From Bacteroidota bacterium (lineage in GTDB: Bacteria > Bacteroidota > Bacteroidia > Flavobacteriales_D > Crocinitomicaceae): 64,000 nucleotides of DNA. The notes beneath the pieces were generated by a model. That model had not been told where the DNA came from, did not search any database, and saw only the letters and a list, made by a program, of their open reading frames with translations. The stretch lies in assembly GCA_016192075.1 (NCBI GenBank), contig JACPUU010000002.1:186001-250000 (forward strand). Direction: 5' to 3'. The translations under genes and the position numbers were made by a program. The stretch's first letter is position 1, and the number at the start of each line of letters is the position of its first letter. This document shows positions 56,461-61,932 of this stretch, one piece after another.

Positions 56461-56653
56461 AACGTTTAAATTGGGAGGATTGCTCAGTGCTAAAATAGGA
56501 TAAAATCACTTTCCCAGCGTACCGTTCTTTAATATTTTCGTAACTTGTCAAAAAATTATCGTTAAAAAAAATGTACCAGGTGTAACTTTTTAAGAAGTTA
56601 GATTGTTTTAGCTGTTTGAAAGGGACCTGTAGTATTGATTTAAAAACCAGATT

Positions 56654-57142
56654 TTGGATAGAACAGAGTACAATATCGCAGTAAAAGAATTCTCCGGAAG
56701 GCTTTATGGCTATTGCCTGAAGTATCTTCAGAACAGAGAAGATGCAGGTGATATTGTACAGGATGTTTTTGAAAAACTCTGGGAGAACAGGAAAAAGGTT
56801 GATTTTGAAAAGGCAAAACCCTGGCTGTTTACCTGTGCACACAATGCGCTGCTTAACTTGATCAAAAAGAACAGTAAGATTACTTACGTTGACAAGTTTA
56901 CAGCTCAGGAAAGCTCAGAAAGTCAGTCAAAAGCTTTTGAAATCAACGAGGTGGTTGAGCGTTGTTTAGCCACGCTGCCTCCGGTTCAAAAATCAGTAGT
57001 TCTTCTGAGAGATCTGGAAGGATACAACTACATTGAGATTGGTGAGATCCTTGGGCTGTCTGAGCCCCAGGTGAAAGTCTATCTCTTCAGGGCCCGTAAC
57101 AAAATTAAAAAACAGCTTAAAGATCTTACCCTGGTGATATGA
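56654..57142 (+). CDS. ECF-type RNA polymerase sigma factor
   Basis: A 162-residue ECF sigma factor. Region 2 reads NREDAGDIVQDVFEKLWENR with a following AKPWLFTCAHNALLN, and region 4 reads LPPVQKSVVLLRDLEGYNYI with IGEILGLSEPQVKVYLFRAR. The start is TTG: a stop codon lies in the frame just upstream with no ATG or GTG between, and the family N-terminus fits this point. The downstream gene overlaps by 4 bases (ATGA), a typical arrangement of a sigma factor and its anti-sigma factor. It probably directs transcription of this operon or of other envelope genes; that link is inferred. Confidence 0.93.
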   Translation: MDRTEYNIAVKEFSGRLYGYCLKYLQNREDAGDIVQDVFEKLWENRKKVDFEKAKPWLFTCAHNALLNLIKKNSKITYVDKFTAQESSESQSKAFEINEVVERCLATLPPVQKSVVLLRDLEGYNYIEIGEILGLSEPQVKVYLFRARNKIKKQLKDLTLVI

Positions 57143-58818
57143 AAATATCGAATAATTTTGATCGGTGGATGTTTGATTACAAGGAGGGAAATCTGTCACC
57201 TGAAGAGGTGGAAGAGTTCGAAAAATTCCTTTTAAACCATCCTGAATACGAGGTTGACGCTGATGCCTGGGATATGGCATTTGTTCAGAATGAACCGGTT
57301 GAATACCCGTATGCTGAAAAACTGGAGAAAAAACGCCGTGTGGCGGGCTGGTACTACTGGAGTGCTGCAGCCATGCTGGTACTGCTCCTTGGTTCATCTT
57401 CACTTTACCTGTTTAATACAACCGATCAACTGGAAAGCGCCGTTACCGGTGAAGAAAGTTTATCAGGTCATCATAACGACCGTACCTTGCCGCTGGTTGA
57501 TTCGTTCAACTCGATCAATAACCGCGCCGGGATACTTTTCAGTGAACTGACCGATGGAGTAACCGATTCCTATACCAATGCCGGAAACACTACCGGAAAC
57601 AACAATCAGCTGGCTCAAAATCAATTAAATGCAGCGGTGTCAGGCAATGTGGTTTCAGGCTCAGATCCAAACCTTGCCAATTCAACGCATGCTGACAATT
57701 TGCCTTATGCTAACGGGGCTAAAAAATCGCAGGCCGGGCTGATTGATCTGGAGGCCAATAAAGTAGAAGGTAAAACGCATGTTGGAAAATATGCCGGCAA
57801 TCCGGATTCGAAAGGGTTGGCTTTTGATGTGACCAAAAAAACAACCGTTAAATCCGGTTCTTCTTTCAGCGCCCTTAAAAAAGTATATCACCGTGTAGAA
57901 CGCATGCTGGGCTATCCGGTTGGTTTGACTAACCTGCGTGACCCGGAATTGTTGCTGCCGCAGAGCACCCTGCTGTCATTCAACTCAGCCTTTGCCGGCG
58001 GTATGTTGAAACCACGTTTTGAAATGAACTACCGCAACCAATGGCTGGGGTCTGACCAAAACTCGTCTGAACTAAATGTGTCGTATGACAATTACTCGTA
58101 TGGTATCCGCGGTGGTGCCGGAATTCTCATCAATGCGCAGGATTATGGTTATGGCCGGTTTGGTGATTATAATGTAAGTCTGCTTTATTCCCCAAAACTG
58201 GTGGTTGGAAGAAACATTGTCGTTGAACCTTCCGTTAAACTGACCATGGGATCAATGATAGCAAACGGAGACAAGTTATCAGCAAACAGCTCATTTGAAA
58301 TGGACCGCGGACGGGTGCTGAACACCATTGCCGATAATCAGATGAATGGCATCACCACTCAGTGGTACAAAGACTATGGCCTTGGTCTTATGATCAATAC
58401 CAAATGGTTTTATGCCGGATTCAGCTCCGATAATTTAAGCAGGCATTATGAAAATGTTTATGGAAATGAATTATATTCACCGGCTAAAACTCCGGTTAAA
58501 CTTTCCGGAATTATAGGTACTGACTACGAATCCAAGACAAAAACCATGACTTACAGTCCGTTTGTGGCATATCAGCAATATGGAAATCAGCCTGAACTCT
58601 GGGCCGGGATGAATTACCGCCTGGGCTGGATGACTGTAGGGGGAGGCCTCTCAACCAACAAGGAATTTACCGCATCGGTAGGAATGAAGTTTGATACGTT
58701 CAAACTTGTTTATCACTACGATTATACTGAATCCGCTCTTACCCAAACCCACATGGGATCACACAATGTCGGAATCAGATTCAATGCAAAACGTAAAAAT
58801 CAGAGATTAACACATTAG
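57139..58818 (+). CDS. Transmembrane anti-sigma and PorP/SprF-like fusion protein
   Basis: A 559-residue protein with no cleavable signal peptide. Residues 1-75 are acidic and helical (DYKEGNLSPEEVEEFEKFLL) like the cytoplasmic part of anti-sigma factors, and the start overlaps the sigma gene. Residues about 78-96 form one transmembrane helix. A Ser/Asn/Gly-rich linker follows. From about residue 255 the sequence turns into a PorP/SprF-like beta domain: STLLSFNSAFAGGM, MNYRNQW (also in the next gene), YGIRGGAGILIN and GDYNVSLLYSPKLVV, ending in a Phe/Tyr-rich strand. The N-terminal half would hold the sigma factor and the C-terminal half would sit in or contact the outer membrane; this topology is inferred. 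Confidence 0.78.
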   Translation: MKISNNFDRWMFDYKEGNLSPEEVEEFEKFLLNHPEYEVDADAWDMAFVQNEPVEYPYAEKLEKKRRVAGWYYWSAAAMLVLLLGSSSLYLFNTTDQLESAVTGEESLSGHHNDRTLPLVDSFNSINNRAGILFSELTDGVTDSYTNAGNTTGNNNQLAQNQLNAAVSGNVVSGSDPNLANSTHADNLPYANGAKKSQAGLIDLEANKVEGKTHVGKYAGNPDSKGLAFDVTKKTTVKSGSSFSALKKVYHRVERMLGYPVGLTNLRDPELLLPQSTLLSFNSAFAGGMLKPRFEMNYRNQWLGSDQNSSELNVSYDNYSYGIRGGAGILINAQDYGYGRFGDYNVSLLYSPKLVVGRNIVVEPSVKLTMGSMIANGDKLSANSSFEMDRGRVLNTIADNQMNGITTQWYKDYGLGLMINTKWFYAGFSSDNLSRHYENVYGNELYSPAKTPVKLSGIIGTDYESKTKTMTYSPFVAYQQYGNQPELWAGMNYRLGWMTVGGGLSTNKEFTASVGMKFDTFKLVYHYDYTESALTQTHMGSHNVGIRFNAKRKNQRLTH

Positions 58819-58822
58819 AACG

Positions 58823-59803
58823 ATGAAAAAGTTAATATACATATTCGCGATTTTGATTTCATTCCAAAGCCTGGCGCAGGACCCTGAATTCACTCAATTC
58901 TATGCTAATCCGATTTACCTGAATCCGGCTTTAGCGGGTACACATGGTTGTCCGCGTTTGAACATGAACTACCGCAATCAGTGGCCATCACTGAGTGGTG
59001 CGTTTATTACAAACAGTATTTCGTATGACCAGTTTGTCAATACCATGCAAGGTGGTGTGGCCTTATTGATTACCAATGACATGGCCGGAAAAAACACCCT
59101 GAACTGGACAACCGTTAACCTGGCTTACTCCTACCATCTTCAGGTGACGCGTGAGTTTTCATTCCTTTTTGGTGTGCAGGCAGGCTGGAATCAGAAGTTT
59201 TTGGACTGGAGCAAATTGAGTTTTGGAGATATGATTGATCCGCACAGAGGATTTATTTACCAGACCGGAGATTTGCCACGCGGTAAACTGAACGGAAGTT
59301 GGGGTACCAAAGGATTTTTTGATGCACAGGCCGGAATTGTAGGATATTCAAAAAACTTCTACTTTGGTTTTGCAGCAAAACACCTGAACCGGCCTGAAGA
59401 AAGCTTGATTCTGAATCCACAGGGAGACAGCCGCCTTCCAATGCGTTTCACTGGTCACATGGGGGCAAATATTGTTTTTGGTAAAGGATCACAATATCAG
59501 AATGTAACTGCAATTTCTCCAAACATAATTTACTCATACCAGGATGGTTTTATGCAGTTAAATGTTGGTACCTATGTTAAATACGGTGCTTTCACAGCAG
59601 GTGCGTGGCTGCGTGCACGTGATGCCTTTATTCTGCTGATTGGTATTGATAGCGGATCATTTAAATTCGGATACAGCTATGACGTAACCGTATCTAAACT
59701 GACAAACGCATCAGGTGGTTCACATGAGTTATCAATGGGTTTCCTGTTTAACTGTAAAGAACCGGTAAAAAGATTCAGAACAATTTCATGTCCGTCATTC
59801 TAG
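58823..59803 (+). CDS. PorP/SprF-family T9SS membrane protein
   Basis: A 326-residue outer-membrane beta-barrel-like protein with a signal peptide ending near SLAQ. It has the family opening QDPEFTQFYANPIYLNPALA, then GCPRLNMNYRNQWPSLSGAF, then SYSYHLQ-type strands, and ends in KLTNASGGSHELSMGF and a Cys-containing tail. PorP/SprF proteins are needed for T9SS export or attachment of specific cargo proteins. It starts 4 bp after the fusion gene, and a terminator ends the operon. Confidence 0.92.
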   Translation: MKKLIYIFAILISFQSLAQDPEFTQFYANPIYLNPALAGTHGCPRLNMNYRNQWPSLSGAFITNSISYDQFVNTMQGGVALLITNDMAGKNTLNWTTVNLAYSYHLQVTREFSFLFGVQAGWNQKFLDWSKLSFGDMIDPHRGFIYQTGDLPRGKLNGSWGTKGFFDAQAGIVGYSKNFYFGFAAKHLNRPEESLILNPQGDSRLPMRFTGHMGANIVFGKGSQYQNVTAISPNIIYSYQDGFMQLNVGTYVKYGAFTAGAWLRARDAFILLIGIDSGSFKFGYSYDVTVSKLTNASGGSHELSMGFLFNCKEPVKRFRTISCPSF

Positions 59804-60657: not shown

Positions 60658-61932
60658 CTATTGCACAACAATCCGTTTGGCTGTTTGCTGATCGACAAAA
60701 AGTAAATAAGTGCCTTTTTGGAAAGTACTCAGATCAAGTTGTGACATTCCCTGCGCACTGTTTTGCATTACAATTCTTCCGGTAAGGTCGGTAACAATCC
60801 ACTGGTGTATTTCAGTATCATTGAAAACAAGGTTAACCAACCCGTCTGTAGGGTTTGGATAAACAGTAAACGAATCAGCCGTTGCATTATCCGGTATCGA
60901 AAGTTCAGTTGGTTCAGCGTTTGAGATAATGGCGGTAGTGTCACATTGTGAAATAAAAGACTCACTGTTCAGCGGGTGCAGTGTCTGCCATTCTGAATAA
61001 ATATCCATGATACCTTTGTATTCCATTCGCCCATCCAGAATATAGGGCTTGATGAGATTGAGCACCGTTCCGATTTTATCGATGTATCCGCTTTCGGGCA
61101 GGTATCTGAAATTGAACATGATTTTCATGTTGAAAAATGCGTCCGGATTACCATCATAGTGTGTGTGCAGGCTGTCCACAAAATTCATAACGCGGTATGC
61201 AAAAAGGGTAGCATCGGTGGTGTCATCAATCACAAAATCCTGACCGCAGCCGGTACCAAAATTTACCAGCGTTCCAAATTCATTGTGTGTTCCAAATCCG
61301 GCATCGGTGGCATCAGTTGGTCTCCAGATACCGTAAGCCTCGTAATCATTTACGTGCATGGGAGAACCCCCGCCCCAAAGTAAAGTAGGCTGCCAGAACG
61401 GGGCATTGGCAAAAACAGCACCGGGCTGCGGGGTTTGCCATTGCGTCCAATCTTCAGGTGCTACTGCCGGACTGGTAAAATCTTTCCAGATAAAACCACC
61501 TAACACGTATGCTGTATCTACACCGCAGCTGTCCAGCAGGTACACCAGGTCTGTTGAATTATACGGATTTGGTGGAACATCTGTAGGGGCAAAATGGTTG
61601 TGACTCTGAACTTCAATGTTGGGTTGATTATCGGCCCATTCAATAATATCGGTTGATGAAAGATAGGCATTGTCATTGGACAGCGTTGCCAGAATAAAAT
61701 TGCTTTCCAGCATCATTTCATACGTAGCCTGGTAGTAGCTAATGGTGTCACAGGCTTTCTGCACATAGGTTTTCATGGTAGCAAAATCAACGGGGTTAGA
61801 ATAATTCAGCCCGTGGTAGGTCACATCATCCATTTCATTGTGACTGGCAAAATAAATGTAAATGGGTACGGTTTGTGATTTTGCAGTGGTCAGCGCAGCT
61901 ATGGCAGCCAGTGCAAGTAGTCTTTTTTTCAT
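60658..61932 (-). CDS. Secreted T9SS cargo protein
   Basis: A 424-residue secreted protein with a signal peptide (MKKRLLALAAIAALTTAKSQ). The mature part includes VPIYIYFASHNEMDD near the start, NIEVQSHNHFAPTDVPP and YGIWRPTDATDAGFGTHNEF, with several His/Asp residues that could suit metal-dependent carbohydrate deacetylation, but no classical catalytic motif is complete. The last 80 residues form a type A T9SS sorting domain (SFTVYPNPTDGLVNLVF to FQKGTYLLFV). No specific enzymatic family is assigned. Confidence 0.8.
   Translation of the reverse strand: MKKRLLALAAIAALTTAKSQTVPIYIYFASHNEMDDVTYHGLNYSNPVDFATMKTYVQKACDTISYYQATYEMMLESNFILATLSNDNAYLSSTDIIEWADNQPNIEVQSHNHFAPTDVPPNPYNSTDLVYLLDSCGVDTAYVLGGFIWKDFTSPAVAPEDWTQWQTPQPGAVFANAPFWQPTLLWGGGSPMHVNDYEAYGIWRPTDATDAGFGTHNEFGTLVNFGTGCGQDFVIDDTTDATLFAYRVMNFVDSLHTHYDGNPDAFFNMKIMFNFRYLPESGYIDKIGTVLNLIKPYILDGRMEYKGIMDIYSEWQTLHPLNSESFISQCDTTAIISNAEPTELSIPDNATADSFTVYPNPTDGLVNLVFNDTEIHQWIVTDLTGRIVMQNSAQGMSQLDLSTFQKGTYLLFVDQQTAKRIVVQ

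Follow-up and report, generated by a model that had tools for sequence, protein, structure and literature searches.

A candidate trans-envelope anti-sigma factor with a PorP-type barrel, encoded in an ECF sigma factor cassette of a Crocinitomicaceae bacterium

The stretch of DNA analysed here, referred to hereafter as the window, comprises 64,000 nucleotides from a Bacteroidota bacterium of the family Crocinitomicaceae (assembly GCA_016192075.1, contig JACPUU010000002.1, positions 186,001 to 250,000 of the forward strand). It carries a cassette in which the gene for an extracytoplasmic function (ECF) sigma factor is followed by a gene for a fusion protein, predicted to join an anti-sigma region, one membrane helix, a linker and a PorP-type beta-barrel, and then by a gene for a separate PorP, a protein of the type IX secretion system (T9SS). 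The open reading frame (ORF) of the fusion starts with ATG and runs through 559 codons without internal stops (57139-58818). It overlaps the sigma factor ORF (56654-57142) by 4 bases (ATGA), and the PorP gene (58823-59803) begins 4 bases past its end. The features of the cassette are as follows.

56581..56610, + strand: predicted ECF promoter of the cassette, TGTAAC-N16-TTGTTTTA, suggesting autoregulation (basis: motif in upstream regions)
56654..57142, + strand: ECF sigma factor, 162 amino acids, TTG start (basis: Pfam Sigma70_r2 and Sigma70_r4_2 above cut-off)
57139..58818, + strand: fusion protein, 559 amino acids, with anti-sigma region, membrane helix, linker and PorP-type barrel
57139..57324, + strand: anti-sigma-like helical domain, residues 1-62 (basis: alignment, model confidence, weak fold matches)
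57340..57414, + strand: single membrane helix, residues 68-92 (basis: model and hydropathy)
57415..57924, + strand: disordered linker rich in Ser, Asn and Thr, residues 93-262, with a helix at 242-257 (basis: model confidence)
57925..58785, + strand: 14-strand barrel of PorP/SprF type and FadL fold, residues 263-549 (basis: PF11751, fold comparison)
58024..58044, + strand: MNYRNQW motif, residues 296-302, also in the next PorP (basis: direct reading)
58823..59803, + strand: cassette PorP, 326 amino acids, second copy of the core GldK-linked T9SS PorP (PF11751, 205.2 bits)

Relatives of the fusion were sought by scanning one genome per species (84,980 species) with a 13-sequence alignment, which gave 199 pattern matches and 128 relatives. 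Counts of loci given below refer to the best 80 of these 128, picked up by a single pattern located in the N-terminal region, and counts of 81 fusions to those 80 together with the fusion of the window. The fusion was a single frame in all 80 loci, which come from public genomes. A sigma factor gene lay directly upstream in 79 of them, the remaining locus being at a contig end; the two genes overlapped by 4 bases in 67 of the 80 loci and by 1 base in 11, and were separated by 18 bases in one. PorP was encoded directly downstream in 70 loci, and the contigs of the other 10 end no more than 183 bases past the fusion. The nearest relatives come from genomes labelled, among others, Crocinitomicaceae bacterium, Crocinitomix, Fluviicola, Brumimicrobium and Lishizhenia. 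Two cultured relatives, Crocinitomix catalasitica ATCC 23190 (L073) and Lishizhenia tianjinensis (L113), carry the cassette. A survey of the order found the cassette fusion in at least 34 of 150 genomes from five families, counted as frames of at least 480 residues (in G084 and G154 the count rests on the long frame and the barrel alone). In a survey of the class (295 genomes, best loci read), the fusion was present in 8 genomes of one further family, and in another family a related anti-sigma domain was joined to an OMP_b-brl_2 barrel instead of PorP (L250, 1501-3030; L252, 92-1825). A related sigma factor gene was seen for L250.

The C-terminal part of the fusion is recognized by sequence profiles. 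Residues 279-548 match Pfam PorP_SprF (PF11751) with an E value of 8.6e-21 (75.1 bits against a cut-off of 22.3), and the protein scores 81.2 bits for TIGR03519, under the cut-off of 90.55 for that family. In the AlphaFold model, N-terminal helices at residues 7-16, 21-33 and 35-47 are followed by a membrane helix at 68-92, a further helix at 242-257 and a 14-strand barrel at 293-549, for which the predicted local distance difference test score (pLDDT) is mostly >90. Most of residues 98-238 are of low confidence (pLDDT mostly <50). When the N-terminal domain was modelled alone, mean pLDDT per block was 88-97 across residues 1-60, and in 60 aligned fusions W10, F12, EGNL at 16-19, P35 and W44 were invariant. 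The hydropathy peak of the window's fusion is 1.65 at residues 74-92. Every one of the 81 fusions has a peak of 1.4 or more that begins at residues 68-80, and peaks in the linker never exceeded 1.36. The linker is 149-263 amino acids long in these proteins, rich in Ser, Asn and Thr, and contains 0.0% Cys. From its position behind a cytoplasmic-type domain, the membrane helix is probably uncleaved.

Fold comparison placed the modelled barrel close to known outer-membrane barrels. It aligned with FadL (3pgr) at Z 22.6 (root mean square deviation, rmsd, 3.1; 250 residues aligned), with chain F of T9SS translocon entry 8gl6 at Z 22.5 (rmsd 3.2, 252 aligned), with chain F of entry 6h3i at Z 22.2 (rmsd 2.9, 247 aligned) and with chains of Bacteroidota beta-barrel assembly machinery (BAM) complexes at Z 19.8 to 18.8; chain F is presumably PorV in the translocon entries, and we take the matched BAM chains to be BamG-like. 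A Foldseek search with the whole model likewise put FadL, OmpU and other barrels on top, and a sequence search for solved-structure relatives gave no meaningful match. As modelled, the fused C-terminal part is a transmembrane beta-barrel of the FadL fold. Foldseek returned six weak matches for the N-terminal domain, among them two anti-sigma factors, RslA (E 4.0) and ChrR (E 4.6). Direct comparison of the modelled domain was also weak, with Z 4.7 for RslA (rmsd 4.3, 58 aligned) and Z 2.5 for ChrR (rmsd 2.9, 49 aligned), and we regard this likeness as a hint, not as proof.

These results agree in large part with the original prediction, which was made from the sequence alone. It had described one protein joining an anti-sigma region, one membrane helix and a PorP/SprF-like barrel, and the intact 559-residue ORF, the Pfam match and the model bear this out. 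The anti-sigma-like N-terminus that it proposed appears as a helical domain with weak matches to RslA and ChrR; the overlap with an ECF sigma gene is the 4-base ATGA, with both sigma regions above the Pfam cut-off; and the PorP/SprF look of the C-terminus was recovered by the profile search. The MNYRNQW motif that it had noticed in the fusion and in the next PorP is read in both proteins. No sign was found of a frameshift joining two genes, a possibility it had raised, and the same domain order beside ECF sigma genes, for which it had suggested a genome survey, recurs in 79 of the 80 loci examined.

The two PorP-type proteins of the cassette differ in their relation to the core secretion system, in which PorP works with PorK and PorN. 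The core PorP gene lies beside a gene that we take to be gldK; this neighbour matches across genomes by BLAST. Counting the fusion, 21 PorP-type stretches are present in the window's genome. The cassette PorP shares 77% identity with the GldK-linked PorP and 23-30% with 18 other PorP-like proteins, and on sequence grounds it is a second core PorP. With BLAST (E 1e-4) the fused barrel matched core and cassette PorPs and none of the 18 other PorP-like proteins of the genome, so that by this measure the core GldK-linked PorP appears to be its nearest kin among the genome's PorPs. The fused part shares with core PorP and other PorP/SprF proteins a PorP_SprF barrel above the Pfam cut-off, but has an anti-sigma domain, a membrane helix and a linker in place of the signal peptide. 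In a 92-row tree the fused barrels formed one group (SH-aLRT 100) and cassette and core PorPs were intermixed; the tree was midpoint-rooted and leaves open whether the fused group is nearer to the core or to other PorPs. An origin of the fused barrel from an SprF-type protein was considered and is not favoured, given the BLAST matches to core and cassette PorPs and to 0 of the 18 others.

Two motifs separate the fused barrels from the PorPs. An N-terminal TQF-N motif was present in 49 of 49 cassette PorPs and 25 of 27 core PorPs. The CPSF tail, by which the core PorPs had been selected, was present in all 27 of them and in 46 of 49 cassette PorPs. Each was found in 0 of 78 fusions; the truncated L076, L134 and L143 were left out of the 81. 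Because the fused barrel lacks both motifs, though cassette PorPs keep them, it is unlikely to replace PorP.

Cassette and core PorPs of the same genome tend to resemble each other. Paired tests used 18 of 21 genomes, G008, G143 and G157 being left out for want of a full cassette PorP. A single clade of cassette PorPs was rejected with a p value of 3e-7 in the approximately unbiased test. Since no gldK was seen beside the "core" PorP of G054, which has a long branch, a second test left out this genome and G025, both divergent, and the rejection held (1e-5). These are not the p values of a blind test, because the cassette group was named after the earlier 92-row tree. The two copies were sisters in 10 of 18 genomes (10 of 16 without G054 and G025), an apparent sign of gene conversion acting on a gene of the secretion system and its regulated second copy. 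In G004, G006, G128, G146 and G042, most 90-base windows of porP were 89-100% identical between the copies and the outermost flanking windows were no more than 48% identical. Contig ends fell within 990 bases past the fusion in 34 of 80 loci, and only 4 of 80 contigs begin within 990 bases before the sigma gene; such lopsided breaks downstream of the fusion fit repeats. Judged from these sequences, gene conversion between cassette and core porP fits best, and repeated duplication into the same place is a possible source of the pairing.

The cassette is preceded by a conserved promoter-like motif. The pattern GTAAC-N16-TTGT was present upstream of the sigma gene in 77 of 79 regions, compared to 0.15 expected from shuffled sequence; these are 79 of the 81 upstream regions, the window included, L095 and L141 having too little upstream sequence. 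The two regions without the N16 motif are L073, with a spacing of 15, and L127, which reads N. The window's genome has five exact copies of the pattern, of which one lies ahead of the cassette; tolerating one mismatch raises this to 7 sites, the same number as in the reversed control. A stricter pattern, TGTAACWWWW-N12-TTGTTTTA, was matched at 28 sites, spread over 14 of the 19 genomes with a fusion, compared to 0 of 16 genomes in which no fusion was found (Fisher p 1e-5, uncorrected for the relatedness of the genomes), and its reversed control gave 1 site in each genome set.

Ten of the 28 strict sites lie before the cassette and 18 elsewhere. All 18 of the latter are within about 210 bases upstream of an ORF, and the product was predicted to be exported in 16 of 18 cases (17 if L187 starts at GTG). 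The same simple rule for predicting export, applied to the genes of the window, gave 14 of 51 (binomial p 9e-8 for the excess among targets). Counts of promoters and targets are not independent, as the genomes are related. Five target families recur in different genera; one of these, a small lipoprotein, is shared by three genomes. A T9SS type B sorting domain was recognized in one predicted target.

The sigma factor itself was compared with named families. Against NF058625 (PG0214/GFO_1088 sigma; cut-off 130) it scored 131.5 bits as a protein and 128.4 in the genome search, and in the sigma tree it fell outside the clade holding 8 of the 9 NF058625 members used. Assignment to the PG0214/GFO_1088 family is not clearly supported; among the loci read, most members pair with anti-sigma factors of 139-264 amino acids. 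The cassette sigmas grouped with those of the OMP_b-brl_2 fusions and of split systems (99/98), apart from the Dma type (100/100) considered below. One such split system lies in the window's own genome (L032:1368-3915, contig G000:C19), where a sigma factor gene is accompanied by genes for a 349-amino-acid anti-sigma factor with tandem domains and a separate OMP_b-brl_2 protein. Its sigma belongs to the clade of the cassette sigma, to which it is 43% identical, and its anti-sigma domain is related, but this anti-sigma factor ends without a barrel and the OMP_b-brl_2 protein is encoded separately alongside. The tail of this anti-sigma factor holds GNFEFERKK, and similar C-terminal tails of this kind in such anti-sigma factors might touch the barrel.

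Proteins of a similar layout have been described in the Bacteroidota. The Dma family was reportedly founded by a PNAS paper of 2024. Dma proteins are described as consisting of an anti-sigma domain, a membrane helix, a long disordered tether and a barrel, with an adjacent ECF sigma gene; the cognate sigma is of group ECF21, the proteins are located in both membranes, and they control vesiculation (PMC13088901). For Phocaeicola vulgatus, an anti-sigma factor predicted to reach across the periplasm to an outer-membrane barrel was reported in 2022 (pair M0N98_03761/03760); its likely signal, in the view of those authors, is cell envelope stress, the system is also induced by bacteroidetocin A, a BamA inhibitor, and toxin treatment raises expression of NigD lipoprotein genes (PMC9308784). 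The original prediction knew of no described precedent, a view that these two reports overturn as far as the architecture is concerned. The predicted fusion shares the four-part layout, the adjacent ECF sigma gene and the phylum with the Dma family (thetaiotaomicron; PMC13088901), but its barrel is PorP_SprF, whereas that of the Dma-like proteins compared below is OMP_b-brl_2. With the P. vulgatus pair it shares the predicted periplasm-spanning anti-sigma factor with an outer-membrane barrel and a link to envelope stress; the available portion of that paper, by whose description alone the two were compared, mentions neither a PorP-type barrel nor a PorP gene (PMC9308784). Among the matches listed by full-text literature searches that covered few subscription papers and no bioRxiv preprints, none concerned, to judge from titles and the opening of abstracts, an anti-sigma factor fused to PorP or SprF. 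The trans-envelope layout itself is thus already known, and the PorP-type version is, to judge from sequence comparison, probably of separate origin. What appears to be new is a fused barrel nearest to core PorP, a second core PorP in the cassette, and a promoter shared with genes for exported barrels and lipoproteins.

With moderate confidence we propose that the gene encodes a trans-envelope anti-sigma factor that uses a PorP-type outer-membrane barrel as a sensor and frees the sigma factor to transcribe the cassette and envelope genes. The proposal starts from the domain order and its conservation, the cassette, the promoter motif with its predicted targets and the close kinship of the two PorP copies, which can be read from the sequences. 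From these we infer sigma binding, placement in both membranes, a signal and a release step. The N-terminal helices would hold the ECF sigma encoded just upstream, the single membrane helix would anchor the fusion in the inner membrane, the linker of about 170 residues would cross the periplasm, and the diverged PorP-type barrel would sit in the outer membrane as the sensor. Disturbance of outer-membrane or T9SS assembly at the PorP site, or a demand for it, might free the sigma through the state of the barrel or through cleavage of the barrel. The freed sigma would then transcribe its own cassette (sigma, sensor and PorP) together with genes for exported barrels and lipoproteins. Most likely, the system is an autoregulated sensor of outer-membrane or T9SS status, if sensing and release proceed as supposed. 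The original prediction suggested that an outer-membrane T9SS signal could pass straight to a sigma factor. The route from outer membrane to sigma remains plausible; the T9SS part is supported only indirectly, by the nearness of the barrel to core PorP, the second core PorP in the cassette and the one target with a type B sorting domain.

Several observations weigh against the proposal. The anti-sigma domain has weak fold matches, and Z values of this size can reflect a common helical arrangement. Five of the 19 fusion-bearing genomes have no strict-pattern site, four of them outside the window's family. Most of the predicted targets are outer-membrane proteins and lipoproteins of a general kind and do not belong to the T9SS machinery, and the type B cargo passes the NCBIfam cut-off by 0.9 bit only (Pfam by 16 bits). 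The motif was found in 1 of 28 upstream regions of core-type PorPs (gldK being in view for 24), and that one, L167, has no gldK nearby. Lacking the TQF-N motif and the CPSF tail, the fused barrel may not touch PorP's partners. Lastly, the two PorP copies are not sisters in 8 of 18 genomes, the window's included, where they nevertheless fall in one small clade with two other genomes.

An alternative is a more general sensor of outer-membrane assembly, in which an unfolded or stalled BAM-dependent barrel triggers proteolysis of the anti-sigma factor regardless of the T9SS, and PorP is one of several barrels supplied. The general nature of the predicted targets is what such a sensor would call for, as is the OMP_b-brl_2 barrel of the sister systems with related sigma and anti-sigma domain. 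The P. vulgatus analogue points the same way, with envelope stress named as its likely signal, induction by bacteroidetocin A and the rise of NigD genes (PMC9308784). We consider this alternative possible but rather unlikely, since the fused barrels form one PorP-type group with BLAST matches to core-type PorPs only, and the cassette keeps a core-type PorP wherever the contig allows it to be seen. The fusion might instead always be cut between linker and barrel, yielding a separate PorP-like barrel and an ordinary anti-sigma regulator of one membrane. A long, disordered linker of variable length would permit this, and the split system in the window's genome has separate genes for its anti-sigma factor and its barrel; yet the linker is kept at 149-263 residues in all 81 fusions and the halves are never separate genes in 80 loci, which makes constant cleavage improbable.

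Membership of the fusion in the known Dma family, which the four-part layout and the adjacent ECF sigma gene would suggest, was examined with five Dma-like proteins standing in for the named Dma1-3. These belong to a family (f70) taken as Bacteroidaceae because of NigD_N, and were called by layout and OMP_b-brl_2 barrel; four also have a lipoprotein gene beside the sigma gene. Neither the anti-sigma domain nor the barrel of the fusion gave a hidden Markov model match in the five. The one BLAST match (E 4e-4) covers the membrane-helix region, and in profile-profile comparison the membrane helix alone aligned. The Dma-type sigmas make up a distinct, long-stemmed clade that does not include the cassette sigmas. 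Among the loci read, no Dma genes lay beside the sigmas most like that of the cassette, the Dma-like proteins having been found through the OMP_b-brl_2 family. Descent from Dma is rejected on the sequences of anti-sigma domain, barrel and sigma as compared with these five proteins, and we hold membership in the family to be very improbable. A frameshift, misassembly, chimera or chance joining of two genes is effectively ruled out by the single open frame in all 80 relatives examined and in the one-contig genome G004.

Returning to the proposed PorP-type sensor, the related anti-sigma domains that carry an OMP_b-brl_2 barrel indicate that the barrel has been exchanged. The findings also suggest that anti-sigma factors acquired a tethered outer-membrane barrel on more than one occasion in the Bacteroidota, and that the barrel can be swapped. 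More tentatively, and with some doubt, we suggest that a PorP look-alike joined to an anti-sigma factor reads the PorP site of the T9SS, that the sigma would refill this site from a second porP whose likeness to the core porP is maintained by gene conversion, and that the layout arose independently of Dma, with PorP and OMP_b-brl_2 barrels exchangeable on one sigma/anti-sigma module. To our knowledge, how cells sense the state of the outer-membrane parts of the T9SS is still unclear. Because a candidate sensor, its sigma, the promoter and predicted targets form one compact cassette, such sensing becomes testable here. If the modelled arrangement is true, a change at the cell surface could turn on transcription directly, via one protein spanning both membranes.

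Some further observations were made in the loci read. The fusions of G127:C509 and G150:C71 (L055, L057) contain one in-frame stop (TAA). In L019 (565-1416) a 283-amino-acid frame with a sigma-like start and an unrelated-looking remainder lies directly upstream of a PorP gene and is perhaps a decayed cassette. The titles of L082, L092, L098, L125, L126 and L140 name Chitinophaga pinensis or Chryseobacterium gleum; their cassette is as in Crocinitomicaceae, and the titles may be wrong. L332 (763-2406) and L335 (571-2274) encode proteins of 547 and 567 amino acids that begin sigma-like and continue with a membrane helix and a barrel, the layout described for Dma3. Cassette-type promoters were also seen before a PorP gene at L167 (1978-2967; spacing 15), in a stretch where no gldK or sigma gene was found, and before another ECF sigma gene at L202 (870-1445), the non-exported exception among the targets, where a sigma cascade is possible. 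In the window itself, a gene on the minus strand at 60658-61932, convergent with the PorP gene, has a product that scores 39.4 bits for a T9SS type A sorting domain, over a cut-off of 23.

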